Origin: a virus
Direction: 5' to 3' (one strand)
DNA: 31,427 bases
Virus record (IMG/VR): IMGVR_UViG_3300042090_000914
Location: 1-31,427 of that record
Each line of letters begins with the position of its first letter. Positions within the stretch are counted from its first letter, which is position 1. The translations under genes were made by a program, and so were the position numbers. Below, piece after piece: positions 22,973-31,065 of this stretch. The notes under the pieces are model-generated. The model was given only the letters and a program-made list of their open reading frames with translations. It was not told the DNA's origin and did not search any database.

Positions 22973-23308
22973 ATGCGGCCGATCGTTGTTTCGACCACTG
23001 GAGTCAGCACGAGCAACCTCGCTCGCATGGATGATTTGGCGCCAGGTCCCATCTCGATCGCCTGCGCGGTCACCGGTAGCGCGACCTATTCCGTGCAGAT
23101 CTCGAACGATGATCCGAACAGCGCCACCAACCCGGTCGCGGTCGGGTCAATGACATGGTTGCCATCTCCAGACGCTGCAGCGACTGGCGCTACCACCAGC
23201 ATCTATACGATCCTCACGGCGGTCCCACTTTTCATTCGGATCAACCAAACCGCCGGCAGCGGCAGTGTCGCAGCGACCATCGTGCAAGCAGGCGTAGGAC
23301 CTTACTAA
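22973..23308 (+). CDS. Small beta-rich virion protein
   Basis: 111 residues from ATG 22973 with GAAGGAGAG about 8 nt upstream. The open frame extends upstream to 22910, but that part is the terminator hairpin, so the shorter start is right. [36 protein letters not shown] and [20 protein letters not shown] look like beta strands of an attachment or connector domain with the pattern 'S.TG.S.......D.......I.....V.G....YS.Q...DDP'. First gene after the terminator. TAATG overlap leads to the collagen-like fibre gene. Confidence 0.72.
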
Positions 23309-24096
23309 TGGCGAACGAAAAAATCAGTCAGCTGCCCGCCGGGGCTCCCGCTCAGCCCACGGATTTAATCCCGATCGCGCGCTCGGGGAATAACTATAGC
23401 CTGTTGGTCTCAAATCTTTCTGGGGGCGCCACGGGCCCGACGGGTCCCACGGGAAACATAGGTCCCACGGGACCCGGAGGGGGAGCGACCGGCCCCACCG
23501 GGCCTACCGGTGCCGCTGGAGCAGAAGGCCCGACGGGACCGACCGGTCCCACCGGCTCAGGTCCCACCGGCGCGACCGGCGCTGCTGGCCCGACCGGGCC
23601 TGGTGGCGGTGCAACGGGCCCTACGGGACCCACCGGGCCAAGCGGCACAGGTCCCACGGGGCCGACCGGAGCGGGGCCGACCGGCCCGACCGGCGCTACA
23701 GGGCCAGGCGGTGGAGCGACTGGGCCTACGGGGCCTACAGGCCCTGCGGGTTCAGGCTCTGGGGGAATCTATAATTCGTCGGTCACCGCGACGCTTGCCT
23801 CGAGCCAGAATAATTATCAGCCATCGGGCTGGTCGACGACGACGAATCGATTCTTGCTCGCAGCCGCAAGCGGCGGTTCAACGATCACCGGATTGCAGGC
23901 ATCGGGTGTGACGGATGGCTGGTCGGTGCTCATCAGCAACACCAGCAGCACCGATGTGATCACGCTCCCCCACTTGTCCGGAAGTTCGACATCCGGAAAT
24001 CGTTTCTCAAACGCCAATGGTGCGGCGGCCACGATCTCTCCGCTAGGATCCGCGTTGTTTGTACTGATTGCCTCCATAGGTTGGGTCCCCGCATGA
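23308..24096 (+). CDS. Collagen-like phage fibre protein
   Basis: 262 residues from ATG 23308, overlapping the previous TAA by one base. Residues 1-40 ([31 protein letters not shown]) are the virion-binding N-terminal segment seen on phage fibres. Residues about 42-150 are Gly-x-y repeats, mostly Gly-Pro-Thr or Gly-Ala-Thr with several Gly-Pro-Gly-Gly-Gly interruptions, a collagen-type triple helix. Residues 155-262 form a globular C-terminal domain ([17 protein letters not shown] through [21 protein letters not shown]) that is related to the end of the protein at 30232. No signal peptide. Likely a trimeric adhesin or fibre stalk. The stop overlaps the next ATG (ATGA). Confidence 0.85.
23430..23755 (+). 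repeat. Gly-Pro-Thr collagen-like coding repeat
   Basis: Nine-base triplet-of-codons repeats (GGN-CCN-ACN) with varied third bases, interrupted by GGC/GGA-rich Gly runs. The complementary frame reads Gly-Pro-Val repeats and is a shadow. Confidence 0.9.
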
Positions 24097-25793
24097 AGAA
24101 GCTATCTGCATTGATGATTGGACTTGTGCTTGGCGTGCGGGCGTTCGGGCAGGTGGCTCCCACGTTTCAAAGTCTGATCGGAGGCACCAACAGCAGCGGC
24201 CAAACGATGACGGTTGGCAATTCCTCAGCACTGACCTTTTCTGGTTCCGGAATTGTCAACGCAAACCAGGCCAATGGTGCTGCATTTCCGACGCTCTCAT
24301 CTCTCTTGGGAACCAATGGATCAGCGCAACCCTCGGCGGTGGCTCTGGGCAACAATCTGGTCATCTCGAGCGGTGTGCTCGCGACCTCGCAGCCGATCAA
24401 TGCGCAGACCGGTACGACCTACGCTCTGCTCACGACCGATTACGGCAAACTGCTCACGTTCAACAATTCTGGCTCGGTTGCCGTCACGCTGTCATCTGCA
24501 ACTACGACCGGCTTCACAGCCGGGTACTCGTTCGACGTTGAGAATTTGGGTGCCGGTACGGTCACGATTACGCCCACGACCTCCACCATCAATGGTGCCT
24601 CAACCCTGACGATTGCTCAGAACCACGGCTGCACGGTCACGAGCGACGGCACGAATTATCAAGTCTCTGCTTGCACAGCGATTGGCGCCGGACCGGGAAC
24701 TGTGACCAGTGTTGCCATGACGGTGCCGAGCTTTCTGAGCATTTCCGGCAGCCCCATCACCAGCACCGGCACCCTAGCGCTGTCGCTCTCCGGAACCGCG
24801 TTGCCCGTAGCCAATGGCGGTACGGGGACCACCACGCCGGGTCTTGTTGCGGGAACGAACGTCACGATCACCGGATCCTGGCCGAACCAGACTATCAACT
24901 CCACGGCGAGCGGCGGTGGAGTGAACAGCGGTACGGGTGGGCAATTAACGTGGTATGCGAGCACAGGCTCGACGGTTTCCGGGAATGCGAACGCCACGAT
25001 CAGTACCGGCGTGCTGTCCTTGGGTGCAAGCGGCACGTTGGGCGGCCTCGTGCTCGGCAATGCCACGAGCGGTACTGTCACGATTGAACCTGTGACCGGC
25101 GCACTTGGCACGGTGACCGCGAGTGTGCCGGCCAATACTGGCACCATCGCTGAAACCAACTATGCGCAGACTTTCAGTCAGCCACAGACCTTCTCAGCAG
25201 CAGTCACCCACAGCGTCGCGGGCGCGGCCTCAGCTGCCGCAACGACTTGGACGGGCGCTCCCTACACCGGAGGCAGCGCTACCTCCACCTATCCGCTCGT
25301 CTACGTCAATAACGGTGCCACGGCTCCCGGCAGTTGGAGCACCGCGGGTACTGAATTGGGGTTCAACGCACCCTCCGGCTTCACCGGGAACTTCTTAGAC
25401 GCGCACGTCAATGGCGGGGCGAGTGTCTTCAATATCTCCTATCAGGGGAACGTCACCGGGGGTACGTACAACGGCACCACCATTCCGACCTCGGGCACAC
25501 TCACTCAAACGATCGCGAGTGGCACCATTGCGCTTGGCACAGCAGCGATCGCCAGCGGCGCATGCGCGAGTGCTGTTACGGGCACTGCGACTGGCACCGC
25601 GACCACGGACGTGGTGAGCGTGGGCTTCAATGGCGATCCGACATCGACAGTCGGTTATGAGCCGAGCACCAACGGGATGTTGACGATCATTCCGTATCCC
25701 ACTGCGAACACAGCCAATATCAAGGTGTGCAACAATACCGGTGCATCCGTGACACCGGGAGCGATCACCATGAATTTCCGAGTGACCCGATGA
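24093..25793 (+). CDS. Fibre-like protein with N-terminal signal peptide
   Basis: 566 residues from ATG 24093 (ATGA overlap with the fibre gene). The start [20 protein letters not shown] is a textbook Sec signal: two Lys, a hydrophobic core, then a small-residue cleavage area. The mature part is almost wholly Ser/Thr/Gly/Ala-rich beta sequence, including phage-fibre elements such as [18 protein letters not shown] and [17 protein letters not shown], and repeated TGTGTLT-type strands. The C-terminus ([21 protein letters not shown]) resembles a fibre tip. Finding a secretion signal on a virion-type beta fibre is unusual. It could be exported adhesin material or a hydrophobic virion anchor resembling a signal. 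Confidence 0.75.
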
Positions 25794-25823: not shown

Positions 25824-27809
25824 ATGCGGGGTTTTGTAACCGGCGTACTGCTGGCACTGCTAGCGTGTTCATCCTCCGCGCGGCCCGGTCATGGAGCCGT
25901 GTCGCATGCGCTGCTGCCGATCACGGGACTGCACATCGTCGGCAATCAGATCAAAAACAGCATCGGGCAAGTGGTCCCATTTCGTGGCGTCGATGTCTCC
26001 GGCACGGAATACATGTGCATCAATGGCACGAATCAAATATTTGATCCCGCATCCGGCGCGCCCAACGCCACAACAGCACCCCCCGTTGCTCCCTTCCAGA
26101 CATGGGGCATCAATATCATTCGCTTGCCATTGAATGAGTCGTGCTGGCTCGGCATCAACGGCGCGGCCACGGGCGGATCGACCTATCAAACAGCGATCGA
26201 GAGTTTTGTTTCCTCGCTCACATCGGCAGGCATCGCCGTCATTCTTGACCTGCAATGGGTGGGCCCAGGTTCAGTGATCGCCAGCAGTTCGGTGTGCGGA
26301 GGTCAGTTTGCACCAGCTCCCGACAATGATCATGCACCGGCTTTTTGGGAATCGGTCGCTGCGGCATTTGCGACCAATGAGTCGGTGATATTCGACCTCT
26401 ACAACGAACCGTGGCTAGATGACACAAGCACCGGATGGGGGCTGCTGCTCAATGGCGGCACGATCAGCGGCGGCTCGTACTCCTCATGCCCTACTTACAC
26501 ATCCGCCGGTACCCAAGCACTGGTCAACGACATACGAACGGCGGAAGGCAGCGGCTACCACCATATCATCGATGTGCCCGGGGTCGGCTACACGAACGTT
26601 TTAGATAACTGGTTGGCGTACGAGCCGAGTGACTCGGCAAGCCCCGCGCAATTGAACGCCGCGTGGCACAGTTATCAAGGCCAGATATGCGACACGCTCT
26701 CGTGCTGGACCTCAGTGATTTTGCCCATCATGAACAGCGTGCCGTTGATGACGGAAGAGATGGGAGAGAATGACTGCACGGATCTTTATGTCGATCCGCT
26801 CATGGTGTGGGAGGATGCACATGGAGGCAACTACCTTGCATGGGCGTGGGATACCTATAACTGCAATAGTTTCCCTGCGGTCATCTCAGATACCACTGGG
26901 ACGCCGACCGGCTTTGGTATCGACATCCGCAATCACTATCTCACGATGTCAGGACAGCCTGTCCCCACACCGCCGCCGATCACATTTTTCGCAACCCCAC
27001 CGTTTGGTTTGGCTGTCGGTCGGACCGGCAATTACACAGCGAGCGATGGCACCGTCTATTATCAGGATCCGTATATACAAACGGCTTCAGGGACATTCAT
27101 TGTGGCGCCAGGTCTGCAAGAGAACATGCAGACATTCCAGCCTTTCTCGACCAGCGATACGATCACGGGCACGCCCGATCCCACGCTCTATCAGACAGGT
27201 CGCGAGAGCTTCGGCGGCACATGGATCATCAACATACCGAACGGCACCTATTATGTGACGCTCGGGATGTCTCTCAATTCTGAGTACAACCTCACAGGCA
27301 GCATCGCACCGACCAGCGCGTGGGGACAGAATCAATTCCTCCAAGGTACCGAGGTCAACGGTTGCATATGGACGAGCTATAGCGGCAGCAACACGATCTT
27401 AAATGCAGCGCAGAGTTCTCCTGGTTCTGGGTACACGAACGGCATTTATTCGAACGTCAGCCTCACCGGAGGCACCGGTACCGGCGCGTTTGGAACGATC
27501 TACGTATCGGGCGGCCAGGTCACCTATCTGGTGGTCACGAACAACGGTAACAATGCCTATCAGGTCGGTGACACGCTCTTCGCGAGCATTCCTGGCGGCT
27601 CTGGATTCCAAGCCACGGTTTACAGCCCTGCGGATCTTGGGTGTTCGTACAACGGAAGCTCGGTGTTCGTGCCTGCCGTCGATACGGCTTACACGATAAC
27701 GTACACGGTTGGCGTGTACGCTCAGCAGTTGACAGTCGAAGTCGCGGCAGCTTTCGGCAGCGGCCGCAATACGGTCTTGAACTCGATCAAAGTAGTGCCC
27801 GCGCCGTGA
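25824..27809 (+). CDS. GH5-like endoglucanase with split malectin-like module
   Basis: 661 residues from ATG 25824; ATG 25812 is an alternative, and neither has a good ribosome site. MRGFVTGVLLALLACSSSAR is a signal peptide with a lipobox-like LLAC. A GH5-type (beta/alpha)8 catalytic domain follows: FRGVDVSGTEYMC, WGINIIRLPLNESCW, IFDLYNEPW (acid/base Glu near 195), WHSYQGQ (conserved His), LMTEEMGEND (probable nucleophile near 312) and YLAWAWDTYNC, to about residue 385. The C-terminal half reads as a malectin-like carbohydrate-binding fold (YQTGRESFGGTWIINIPNGT; LTVEVAAAFGSGRNTVLNSI), interrupted by a phage virion-type insert (GSGYTNGIYSNVSLTGGTGT). Predicted to hydrolyse beta-1,4 or related glucans. 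Followed by the beta-propeller gene through a GTGA overlap. Confidence 0.8.
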   Translation: MRGFVTGVLLALLACSSSARPGHGAVSHALLPITGLHIVGNQIKNSIGQVVPFRGVDVSGTEYMCINGTNQIFDPASGAPNATTAPPVAPFQTWGINIIRLPLNESCWLGINGAATGGSTYQTAIESFVSSLTSAGIAVILDLQWVGPGSVIASSSVCGGQFAPAPDNDHAPAFWESVAAAFATNESVIFDLYNEPWLDDTSTGWGLLLNGGTISGGSYSSCPTYTSAGTQALVNDIRTAEGSGYHHIIDVPGVGYTNVLDNWLAYEPSDSASPAQLNAAWHSYQGQICDTLSCWTSVILPIMNSVPLMTEEMGENDCTDLYVDPLMVWEDAHGGNYLAWAWDTYNCNSFPAVISDTTGTPTGFGIDIRNHYLTMSGQPVPTPPPITFFATPPFGLAVGRTGNYTASDGTVYYQDPYIQTASGTFIVAPGLQENMQTFQPFSTSDTITGTPDPTLYQTGRESFGGTWIINIPNGTYYVTLGMSLNSEYNLTGSIAPTSAWGQNQFLQGTEVNGCIWTSYSGSNTILNAAQSSPGSGYTNGIYSNVSLTGGTGTGAFGTIYVSGGQVTYLVVTNNGNNAYQVGDTLFASIPGGSGFQATVYSPADLGCSYNGSSVFVPAVDTAYTITYTVGVYAQQLTVEVAAAFGSGRNTVLNSIKVVPAP

Positions 27810-29092
27810 GAATCATATTGGTCGGCTTGTCGGCAGTCATGGCGATCGCGATGTCGACGTTGGTCGGATTGATGTCGTTGCCGGATGCCAATGCGCGAAA
27901 TCCGCGCGGCTTCTCCATACCGGCGGCGAATCCCACGGGCACTTGGTATAACGTCACGCCGGGAACGATCAATCTTAACAATTCATTTTGCAGTGGCGGC
28001 AATTATGGAACCGAAACGGTAGCGGCCGACACATCGAATCCAGGCACGCTGTACACACTCGCGCACTGCCAGGGCATTTGGAAGTCCACGGACTACGGTC
28101 AGACCTGGAATGAGATGAGCCAAAGCGGCACCAATGGGGTCGCGGCGGTGACAGGCGGTGGCGGCTTGACGGTGCAGCCGAACGCGACCACGGGCGGCGT
28201 GCCAACGATCTACACCGCGTTCATTCGCAACTACCAGCAGACCTCTATCGGCTTTTGGGCGAGCACCGATGGTGGGGCCAATTGGACGACCACGAACCTG
28301 ATTCCCCCGCTCCCCTCGGGGCGCGGGGATGTGTATCCGCCGATTGTCGACCCTTATGCCCCCTTGCATCTGCTGATGGCGGGCCATGAGCAAGCGTACG
28401 TGCTTGAGAGCACCGATGGGGGCAATACCTGGTCGGCCGTGAATCTGGATTCGGGGATGGCGGCCGCCACGACCGGCACAGCCTACATATTTTTCATCAA
28501 CACGGGCACTGCCGGCACGCCCGGCACGCATAGCAGCGGCGGCACGGCGAACACGTGGCTGTGGATGGCGCAGGACACGCCCTACGGGACCTGGCGTACG
28601 ACGAATGGGGGTACCAACTGGACGCAAGTCAACACAGCCACCCACTCGCACGGCTCCTCAACGATCTACCAACCTGGGACTGCGGGTGTCATTTTCCTGC
28701 CGAACATTTACGGTTCTTGCTCGAACAGCATTGGCACGTATGTCACTTGCCCAAGCGGTGGCCCGAGCAGCGGCAATGCGACGGGACTGCTTTACAGCAG
28801 TGATTACGGGCAGACCTGGCCGACATTTTTGGGCGCGAACACGGAAGAGACCGTCACCGTCGCGACGTCCAAAAACGTCTATACGGCATACGGCTATCCG
28901 ATCGGCGTGGGATCGACGAGTCTGAACTTCGAATATGCAGCGCAACCGGGAACAGGTTCTTGGAGCGCCCCTTCGAGCCCAACAAACCCAAGCCAGGGGC
29001 CAGGACAGATCGCCGTGGTGAATGACGGCACGCATAACATACTGATAGGTGCCTTTCACAATGTCGGGCTTTGGAGATATATAGAACCATGA
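27806..29092 (+). CDS. Asp-box beta-propeller protein with signal peptide
   Basis: 428 residues from GTG 27806, overlapping the previous stop. The start MRIILVGLSAVMAIAMSTLV is hydrophobic and leads to an Ala-x-Ala-type end (PDANA, then RNPRG), a Sec signal. The mature part contains five Asp-boxes: STDYGQTW (near 94), STDGGANW (near 153), STDGGNTW (near 203), TTNGGTNW (near 264) and SSDYGQTW (near 331), each after a hydrophobic strand. This is the BNR/beta-propeller pattern of sialidases, GH74 xyloglucanases and sortilin-like proteins. No unambiguous catalytic residue set is visible, so I call the fold, not the enzyme. Its neighbour is a GH5-like enzyme, so polysaccharide binding or cleavage is likely. 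Confidence 0.78.
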   Translation: MRIILVGLSAVMAIAMSTLVGLMSLPDANARNPRGFSIPAANPTGTWYNVTPGTINLNNSFCSGGNYGTETVAADTSNPGTLYTLAHCQGIWKSTDYGQTWNEMSQSGTNGVAAVTGGGGLTVQPNATTGGVPTIYTAFIRNYQQTSIGFWASTDGGANWTTTNLIPPLPSGRGDVYPPIVDPYAPLHLLMAGHEQAYVLESTDGGNTWSAVNLDSGMAAATTGTAYIFFINTGTAGTPGTHSSGGTANTWLWMAQDTPYGTWRTTNGGTNWTQVNTATHSHGSSTIYQPGTAGVIFLPNIYGSCSNSIGTYVTCPSGGPSSGNATGLLYSSDYGQTWPTFLGANTEETVTVATSKNVYTAYGYPIGVGSTSLNFEYAAQPGTGSWSAPSSPTNPSQGPGQIAVVNDGTHNILIGAFHNVGLWRYIEP

Positions 29093-29859
29093 AGAAATTT
29101 GCTCTTGGCATATTGCTCCTGGCAGCAGGACTGGTGGGTCAGGCACGCTCGCAAAGCGTCGGCTGCGCTAACTGGAATGGCAACGCAGGAGCCGTCACCA
29201 CGGTTTCAAGCACCTCCTGCACGACATCATCAGCCGGGACCAGCACCTTCGTTCTGGTTGTCATCAACGCACCCGCGGCCACGAGTGTGCCAACCATCAC
29301 GGATACCTTTGGCAATAATGCCAAATGGACACTCGCGCAGAGCATCAACACCTATCCGGGACAACCGCGAACGCTCGCGCTTTACTACTGCAACTTGTGC
29401 ACCGGAGGCAGCGGCTACACGGCGACCGCGACATGGACTGGTACGGGCGATGCGTCCATCGGATTTGTTGAATTTCAAAGTGCCGGTACGCTCACTCTAG
29501 GGGTAGCGCCGACAGGCGTTACCGATACGGCTGCAAGTCCCATCGTTGCACCCTCCATCACGACGACGCAAGCGAACCAGTTGGTCATCAACGCTTTTGG
29601 AACGTACAGCTCCAACACTCAGACGCTTGCGAATAATGCGACCGGTGGCAGCGGTGGCTTTACCGCCGCTGTCTCTCAGCAATCGGTCAACACATATCAG
29701 AACGGTATGATCTCCTATCAAATCGTCACCAGTTCCGGCACCGCAGTGAAAGACGCCTATAGCTATAGCACGTTTGACTACACGGCGGCTCTTGCAATGT
29801 CTCTGAAGACGCCCGCCACCAACGCGCCGCCCGCGGGCGTCTTCGTCACTCTACCCTGA
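29089..29859 (+). CDS. Secreted beta-sandwich-like protein
   Basis: 256 residues from ATG 29089, ATGA overlap with the propeller gene. MKKFALGILLLAAGLVGQAR is a Sec signal with a likely cleavage before SQSVGC. The mature part has Cys residues (CANWNGN, STSCTTSS, YYCNLCTGG) and strands such as SGYTATATWTGTGDASIGFV and SPIVAPSITTTQANQLVINA, with the look of an exported adhesion or carbohydrate-binding beta sandwich. It ends KTPATNAPPAGVFVTLP. No catalytic motif recognised. Fourth gene of the region, third with a signal peptide in a row. Confidence 0.7.
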   Translation: MKKFALGILLLAAGLVGQARSQSVGCANWNGNAGAVTTVSSTSCTTSSAGTSTFVLVVINAPAATSVPTITDTFGNNAKWTLAQSINTYPGQPRTLALYYCNLCTGGSGYTATATWTGTGDASIGFVEFQSAGTLTLGVAPTGVTDTAASPIVAPSITTTQANQLVINAFGTYSSNTQTLANNATGGSGGFTAAVSQQSVNTYQNGMISYQIVTSSGTAVKDAYSYSTFDYTAALAMSLKTPATNAPPAGVFVTLP

Positions 29860-29866
29860 GAGTCAA

Positions 29867-30235
29867 GTGAGCACGGGCACCTACAATCTATGCATCAACC
29901 AGTATGCGACCTACACGAGGATATTCGTATGGCTGACGAGTATCTGCGGTTGTGGCACTGTGGGAGCGGCTCCGGGGCCGGTTGATCTGACTGGGTACAC
30001 GGCCTCTCTTCAAATCCGCGCTTTTCAGTTGGCTCCGGATATTCTGTACGATGCTAGTTCAGATATCGTCTTAGGGGGCACATCGGGATCGATCGCGCTC
30101 ACCATTCCTGCGTCCGCGACCGCTGATTTCACTTGGTGGACCGGAGTGTACGATTTGATCCTCACCGACTCGAGCGGCAATGTGACGCGCCTTCTGCAAG
30201 GCACAGTCACGGTGTCGGCGGGAGTGACGCCATGA
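29867..30235 (+). CDS. Small phage virion adaptor-type protein
   Basis: 122 residues from GTG 29867, 7 bp after the previous stop; the spacer contains GAG as a weak ribosome site. [20 protein letters not shown], then [20 protein letters not shown] and [20 protein letters not shown] with [14 protein letters not shown] match a common phage protein family (LTGYTA.MQIR....G.I.L....A....W..G.YDLEL....G.V.RLL.G.VTVS) related to baseplate BppU-like domains. It lacks a signal peptide and is coupled by ATGA to the second collagen-like gene. Probably an attachment domain for that fibre. Confidence 0.75.
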
Positions 30236-31065
30236 GCGTGCCGGGAACTCAAGTGATCGTGTCGACCACGCAAACCAATGTGATCGAGGTAGTCACGCCG
30301 GGCCCGCAAGGTCCCACCGGTCCGATGGGTAATCCTGGTCCGACAGGTCCTTCGGGAACTGCGGGACCCACGGGCCCCGGTGTCGGGGCTACCGGCCCGA
30401 CCGGAGCAGCTGGATCTTTCGGTCCCACGGGCCCGACCGGAACCACAGGGCCCTCGGGGAGCGGCGCTCAGGGACCCACCGGTCCCACCGGGCCTGGCGT
30501 CGGTGCGACGGGTCCCACCGGATCAACCGGCCCGACCGGTACGGGACCGACAGGTCCGATGGGCGCATCGGGTGCGGCAGGACCCACCGGCCCTACGGGC
30601 GCTGCTGTCACGGGCCCGACGGGCCCGAGCGGTGCTAGCGGTACGCATGGTGCCACGGGACCCACCGGTACAGCAGGTCCCACCGGCCCCACTGGCACCG
30701 GAGGCAGCGGACCTACGGGCCCCACGGGACCACCTGCCGCATTCGGCGTTCAGGTCACGGCGACTCTCGCATCCGGCAACACTGATAACTATGACCCTGC
30801 GGGCTACATCCCAGGCGTGACGAACTGCTTGATCTTGACGCCGACGGATGATACCTCCACGCTCTTGGGGCTTCTGGCGACAGGTGTGGCGAACGGATTC
30901 TCGCTGCTGATTTGGAATGCGAGCTCGACGCTTTACATCACCTTTGAGAATCAGGCGAGCAGCGCGACAGCGAATCAATTCGCGTGCCCGGGGGCCGCAA
31001 CAGTGGAACTCGGGCCCTTCACGAAGGTGCTCGCGACATATATAGGTGGTCAATGGACATTGTGA
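30232..31065 (+). CDS. Second collagen-like phage fibre protein
   Basis: 277 residues from ATG 30232, ATGA overlap. A short N-terminal segment ([26 protein letters not shown]) precedes Gly-Pro-Thr repeats through about residue 168, including three longer Gly-Val-Gly-Ala interruptions. The C-terminal about 105 residues ([20 protein letters not shown] to YIGGQWTL) parallel the tip of the fibre at 23308: the [20 protein letters not shown], and a final hydrophobic strand are in the same order. No signal peptide. Probably a trimeric fibre whose tip recognises a surface. Confidence 0.85.
30300..30734 (+). repeat. Gly-Pro-Thr collagen-like coding repeat
   Basis: GGN-CCN-ACN codon triplets with varied third bases, like those at 23430-23755 but longer. 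Confidence 0.9.

Follow-up and report, generated by a model that had tools for sequence, protein, structure and literature searches.

A virus-encoded GH5 hydrolase with a malectin-like domain split by a phage virion module

Can a domain that circulates among phage virion proteins come to lie inside the carbohydrate-binding-like domain of a phage-borne enzyme, and what would it do there? This question is raised by a gene in a 31.4-kb IMG/VR virus record (IMGVR_UViG_3300042090_000914), of which the whole stretch of 31,427 nucleotides was analyzed and is called the window here. The window carries helicase, primase/helicase, terminase, SU10-type portal, and capsid genes. A preliminary description had proposed that the gene at 25824-27809 encodes a GH5-like enzyme followed by a malectin-like module, the two halves of which are separated by a fibre-derived segment at about 27413-27625. 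We found that the coordinates of this gene are correct: it begins with M at 25824, stops at 27809, and forms one uninterrupted frame of 665 codons. The features are listed below with reference to L009 (IMGVR_UViG_3300005614_000066), a 34-kb viral contig that was found by a GH5-based scan of viral contigs.

25824..27809, plus strand: whole gene, with a signal-peptide-like N-terminus (which aligns with that of L009), a GH5 domain, and a malectin-like module with a virion module inside it
25824..25910, plus strand: putative Sec signal peptide (MRGFVTGVLLALLACSSSARPGHGAVSHA), read from the sequence; the L009 equivalent is MMRKLIALFLLFATAPIGAQ
25929..26951, plus strand: GH5 catalytic domain, aa 40-380 (PF00150; 49% identity to L009, 43% to Streptantibioticus)
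26406..26408, plus strand: E199 of NEP, predicted acid/base, invariant in comparison with the Streptantibioticus GH5
26757..26759, plus strand: E316 of EEMGEND, predicted nucleophile, invariant in the same comparison
26973..27392, plus strand: malectin-like module, first half, aa 388-527 (40% identity to L009; PF11721 E 0.0026)
27363..27644, plus strand: Cys518 (27363-27365) and Cys611 (27642-27644) flanking the insert, a possible disulfide at its neck (from the sequence)
27399..27626, plus strand: virion module within the malectin-like module, aa ~530-605 by predicted structure and 27423-27620 (aa 538-603) by alignment with L009
27621..27794, plus strand: malectin-like module, second half, aa 604-661 (44% identity to L009; malectin columns 112-148)
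27806..29092, plus strand: BNR/Asp-box protein (PF13088, E 2.4e-6; 47% identity to the L009 C-terminus) with a likely GTG start and a 4-base overlap (GTGA) with the GH5 stop, the overlap being read from the translation

Judged by its sequence, the window enzyme is a member of the GH5 family. PF00150 matched aa 88-347 with 60.9 bits (cut-off 23.5), which bears out the proposed GH5-like core, and both catalytic glutamates, those of NEP and EEMGEND, are conserved in the 43%-identical GH5 of Streptantibioticus. Presumably E199 is the acid/base and E316 the nucleophile, roles that we assigned from GH5 generalities. NCBIfam gave no match for the enzyme, and the earlier label "endoglucanase" is a guess at the level of GH5. 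The nearest cellular GH5 domains that we found were those of Streptantibioticus (40-43% identity) and Thermogemmatispora (43%). However, the matches to Streptantibioticus cattleyicolor and Thermogemmatispora are confined to GH5 itself; in Streptantibioticus the ORF starts with an N-terminal extension, CBM2-like by appearance, and it ends with GH5. In addition, the putative N-terminal signal peptide favours Sec export over cytoplasmic assembly into the virion, and the enzyme is probably exported.

The GH5-based scan of viral contigs gave 14 relatives, and one of them, L009, continues past GH5 into the same C-terminal module. Beyond the GH5 domain, the window and L009 proteins share about 40% identity over the first half of the malectin-like module (149 residues, E 1e-25) and 44% over the second half (62 residues, E 9e-10 at dbsize 1e8). 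In L009 these matches lie almost side by side, the first ending at 516 and the second starting at 520, and the insert of the window has no matching segment in the L009 protein. Thus, the domain of the window has gained 66 residues in frame (27423-27620). This agrees with the position proposed earlier, as does the structural extent of the insert, and the insert measures 66-76 residues. At the level of sequence comparison, the insert-free L009 is the decisive evidence that the malectin-like domain is split. The idea that the flanking halves are two separate folds was set aside given the uninterrupted domain of L009. L009 likewise carries a single cysteine to either side of the loop, and a disulfide between Cys518 and Cys611 that closes the neck of the insert is possible.

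The L009 contig also carries homologues of other window genes, namely the capsid (33% identity), the portal (24%), the BNR protein (47%), and the following gene (29%), and it is thus a distant relative of the window phage. Both proteins have a signal-peptide-like start, GH5, and the malectin-like module, and both loci have a BNR part, the same downstream gene, and a related portal and capsid. L009, however, is without the inserted module, and its two FN3-like stretches and BNR part are fused in one protein of 1124 aa. The fusion of BNR in L009 and the apparent 4-base overlap in the window suggest that GH5 and BNR act together.

To what extent is the split module a malectin? In the window protein, PF11721 stayed below threshold (14.2-18.2 bits vs a cut-off of 23), with an E of 0.044 for the entire protein and 0.0026 for the first half alone, and we therefore call the module malectin-like. 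The L009 module exceeded the cut-off (25.9 vs 23 bits), covering only the first half of the profile. Bacterial malectins were gathered from Chloroflexota by Pfam, and 14 of them were aligned. When the insert was kept, only the first half aligned with these malectins in hhalign; when the insert columns were left out, the alignment covered malectin columns 4-148 of 151 (prob 93, E 3e-7), nearly all of its score coming from the first half. The second half alone aligned to malectin columns 112-148 (E 3.6e-4), a score reached by none of 200 shuffles. The proposal that the two halves make up one malectin-like domain is supported by sequence, for they stand in order, are near-contiguous in L009, and align over the full-length profile. 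The sequence evidence for malectin is strong for the first half; for the second half, the profile evidence is moderate and that from contiguity in L009 is strong.

The structure prediction suggested as a check succeeded for the insert, which folds confidently alone, but gave the malectin halves below useful confidence. In the AlphaFold models, the halves flanking the insert had a pLDDT below 50 and the insert-free module of L009 had a pLDDT of 32. This is because only two sequences were available, and we therefore do not argue the nesting in a sandwich from the fold. In Xenopus malectin, the ligand residues are Y67, Y89, Y116, F117, and D186 (PMC7783096). In alignments inspected by eye, Y89 is replaced by E in the window and kept in L009, D186 is without a counterpart, and the Y116/F117 region is not alignable. 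The canonical ligand residues thus appear to be largely missing, which makes sugar binding by the malectin part doubtful. Poplar malectin domains likewise keep only 2 of the 5 ligand residues.

Searches with the full protein against viral contigs and against phages, with the malectin alignment, with the L009 C-terminus, and with a malectin DNA motif gave no relative of the split malectin module but L009, and no close relative was found in 301 Chloroflexota genomes. The comparison is thus made between one insert-bearing and one insert-free sequence.

The insert resembles segments of phage virion proteins, as had been noticed earlier. PHROG_5342 (tail fibre) matched aa 524-584 with an E of 1e-7, and the matching PHROG profiles are of tail fibre, virion, and wedge proteins (PHROG_5342 / 6005 / 438 type). 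We aligned the module from four viral contigs (L003, L004, L005, and L007) and the window; larger module alignments that included malectin rows, in which MAFFT misplaced L009, were discarded. Against a leave-one-out module HMM the insert scored 59.7 bits (E 1.3e-13 at Z=1e7), and 200 shuffled sequences gave no match. Pfam gave no family for the insert alone, even with E allowed to reach 10, nor any for a protein carrying the module twelve times. Using the module alone as a query, tblastn gave no matches in phages and plasmids, and masking by the low-complexity filter is probable here.

Among 600 pattern-matched viral candidates, the module was confirmed in at least 441 stretches. Its hosts among the loci kept fall into at least about ten distinct ORF groups. 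The biggest of them has at least 61 virion-protein ORFs, which are tail-stopper-like by our reading (PHROG_3287 names the L035 protein a virion structural protein and spans the module). Further hosts include at least 14 SU10-type adaptors, a DUF4815 myovirus protein, and others, and the module is also found in baseplate wedges, head-closure proteins, and fibres. No enzyme domains were found in the viral module-bearing representatives that were tested. The insert is therefore a phage virion module, as proposed, but "fibre-derived" describes it too narrowly, since adaptors, stoppers, wedges, and head-closure proteins carry the module as well. With this correction, the observation of a split module is confirmed and the nested-domain interpretation is supported. 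In L004, PF24175 (SU10 adaptor) was matched in two stretches with the module between them. The SU10-type adaptors interrupted by the module (L004:1603-2538 and L007:5725-6660) make a further nested case, in a head-tail connector. A viral ORF of 1544 aa (L003:1993-6624) has about twelve module copies, and L082, L094, L102, L105, and L107 are alike.

AlphaFold predicted the insert as an autonomous domain of six strands and a short helix, with a pLDDT of about 90 (about 81-93 over most of it). The named BFVD fold matches of the insert were mostly phage structural proteins, and Foldseek against PDB found no match with an E below 0.5. Among solved structures, domain I (residues 98-188) of the T4 tail sheath protein gp18 was one of the top matches to the insert, with a VIA Z of 5.2 (rmsd 2.7 over 74 residues, 18% identity), a value tied with that of T-protein (aminomethyltransferase) barrels and near that of EF-Tu barrels. 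This T4 domain is a six-stranded barrel with a helix, forms a protruding insertion in another domain, and binds the baseplate and the retracted fibres (PMC3004832). It is thus like the predicted fold of the insert in being a barrel plus helix nested in another domain. However, the similarity is weak and of a common fold, and the host protein and context are unrelated. We take the likeness between the predicted fold and gp18 domain I as a lead, not as homology.

What could the nested barrel do? The best explanation, to which we give a probability of about 0.62, is that the gene encodes an exported phage polysaccharide hydrolase, in which a virion barrel splits the malectin-like domain and adds a contact to the virion or to glycans. 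The hydrolase, probably exported, consists of GH5 followed by a putative malectin-like beta-sandwich, with the BNR protein co-encoded. In this phage lineage, a small beta-barrel circulating among virion proteins entered a loop of the malectin-like domain in frame and left the flanking strands intact. After export by Sec, the enzyme could cleave a beta-linked polysaccharide of the host surface, the biofilm, or the surroundings, and the malectin-like domain, with its ligand residues apparently mostly missing, may serve as a spacer or a weak glycan binder. The barrel would protrude from the loop and add a contact, most likely to virion parts or glycans, and this contact may concentrate the enzyme where the particle meets the cell. 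The enzyme may plausibly be recruited to the virion. A broader proposition is that the barrel is a general, unnamed docking module, nested in loops of virion proteins and here of an enzyme, which marks otherwise secreted carbohydrate-active enzymes and recruits them to the particle; we consider this improbable.

Another explanation is that the enzyme is the ordinary secreted product of an auxiliary metabolic gene, which acts outside the infected cell and in which the barrel is a tolerated passenger without tethering. The signal-peptide-like N-termini in the window and L009 fit this, and L009 has the same GH5-malectin architecture without the insert. In addition, a virus-borne GH5 whose endomannanase activity was tested and proven is known from permafrost soil (PMC6786970). 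Nevertheless, the window gene belongs to a cassette of fibre-like and collagen-like genes, the other occurrences of the module in the viral loci are nearly all in virion proteins, and the insert has kept its open frame and fold. We regard the passenger explanation as unlikely, though it is the likeliest of the alternatives.

Two further alternatives concern the origin of the insert. The insertion is the derived state, as shown by sequence from the existence of the insert-free L009 and from the 14-sequence bacterial malectin alignment without such an insert. The opposite course, an ancestral insert that was deleted in the L009 lineage, draws on the fact that the polarity is read from few sequences, with two viral GH5-malectin genes only; yet 0 of 14 bacterial malectins have such an insertion, the module is widespread in unrelated proteins, and we consider this course very improbable. 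Slightly less probable again is an assembly chimera of two phage genomes. The window is a single metagenomic record, and the malectin-motif scan gave only L009 as a second contig (the window's own record may be excluded from scans). However, both junctions are in frame within the 665-codon ORF, and on either side of the insert the flank matches L009, with hardly anything missing. The third-position GC does not set the insert apart (0.70 vs 0.64-0.71 in the flanks), and no near-identical donor was seen, identity to the insert being mostly 48-63% among the matches listed.

Virus-borne GH5 enzymes and domain sharing between unrelated phage proteins are known already. The permafrost-soil enzyme is, like the window enzyme, a GH5 on an uncultivated virus; the available part of its report mentions neither a malectin module nor a nested domain, and the two are compared here by description (PMC6786970). 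A survey of phage mosaicism, in its available part, described domains common to functionally different proteins, most strongly in fibres, spikes, endolysins, and DNA polymerases, and mentioned there neither this module nor any GH5 enzyme with a virion module inside its CBM-like domain (PMC10684548). A search of the open-paper literature with few terms found no description of a virus-borne hydrolase that has a virion module within its carbohydrate-binding-like domain and an insert-free sister gene; this is no proof of absence. The window and L009 thus make a natural pair with and without a virion module in the carbohydrate-binding-like domain of a viral hydrolase. This pair offers a direct test of whether such modules bring "auxiliary" enzymes to particles, and so of whether these enzymes serve entry or the feeding of the infected cell. 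Furthermore, our results draw attention to a viral module that is very common and matched no Pfam model.

Other observations were made at this locus and beyond it. Collagen-like (GPT repeat) tail-fibre-like genes at 23308-24096 and 30133-31065 bracket the hydrolase cassette. Four adjacent genes, 24093-25793 (fibre-like), 25824-27809 (GH5), 27806-29092 (BNR), and 29089-29859 (unknown), have signal-peptide-like starts, which is unusual for a tail region. In Chloroflexota genomes (L125, L126, L129, and L130), weaker relatives of the module are arranged in tandem, both between multicopper-oxidase domains and behind a CCP_MauG domain, and related repeats may thus have entered cellular secreted redox proteins too.
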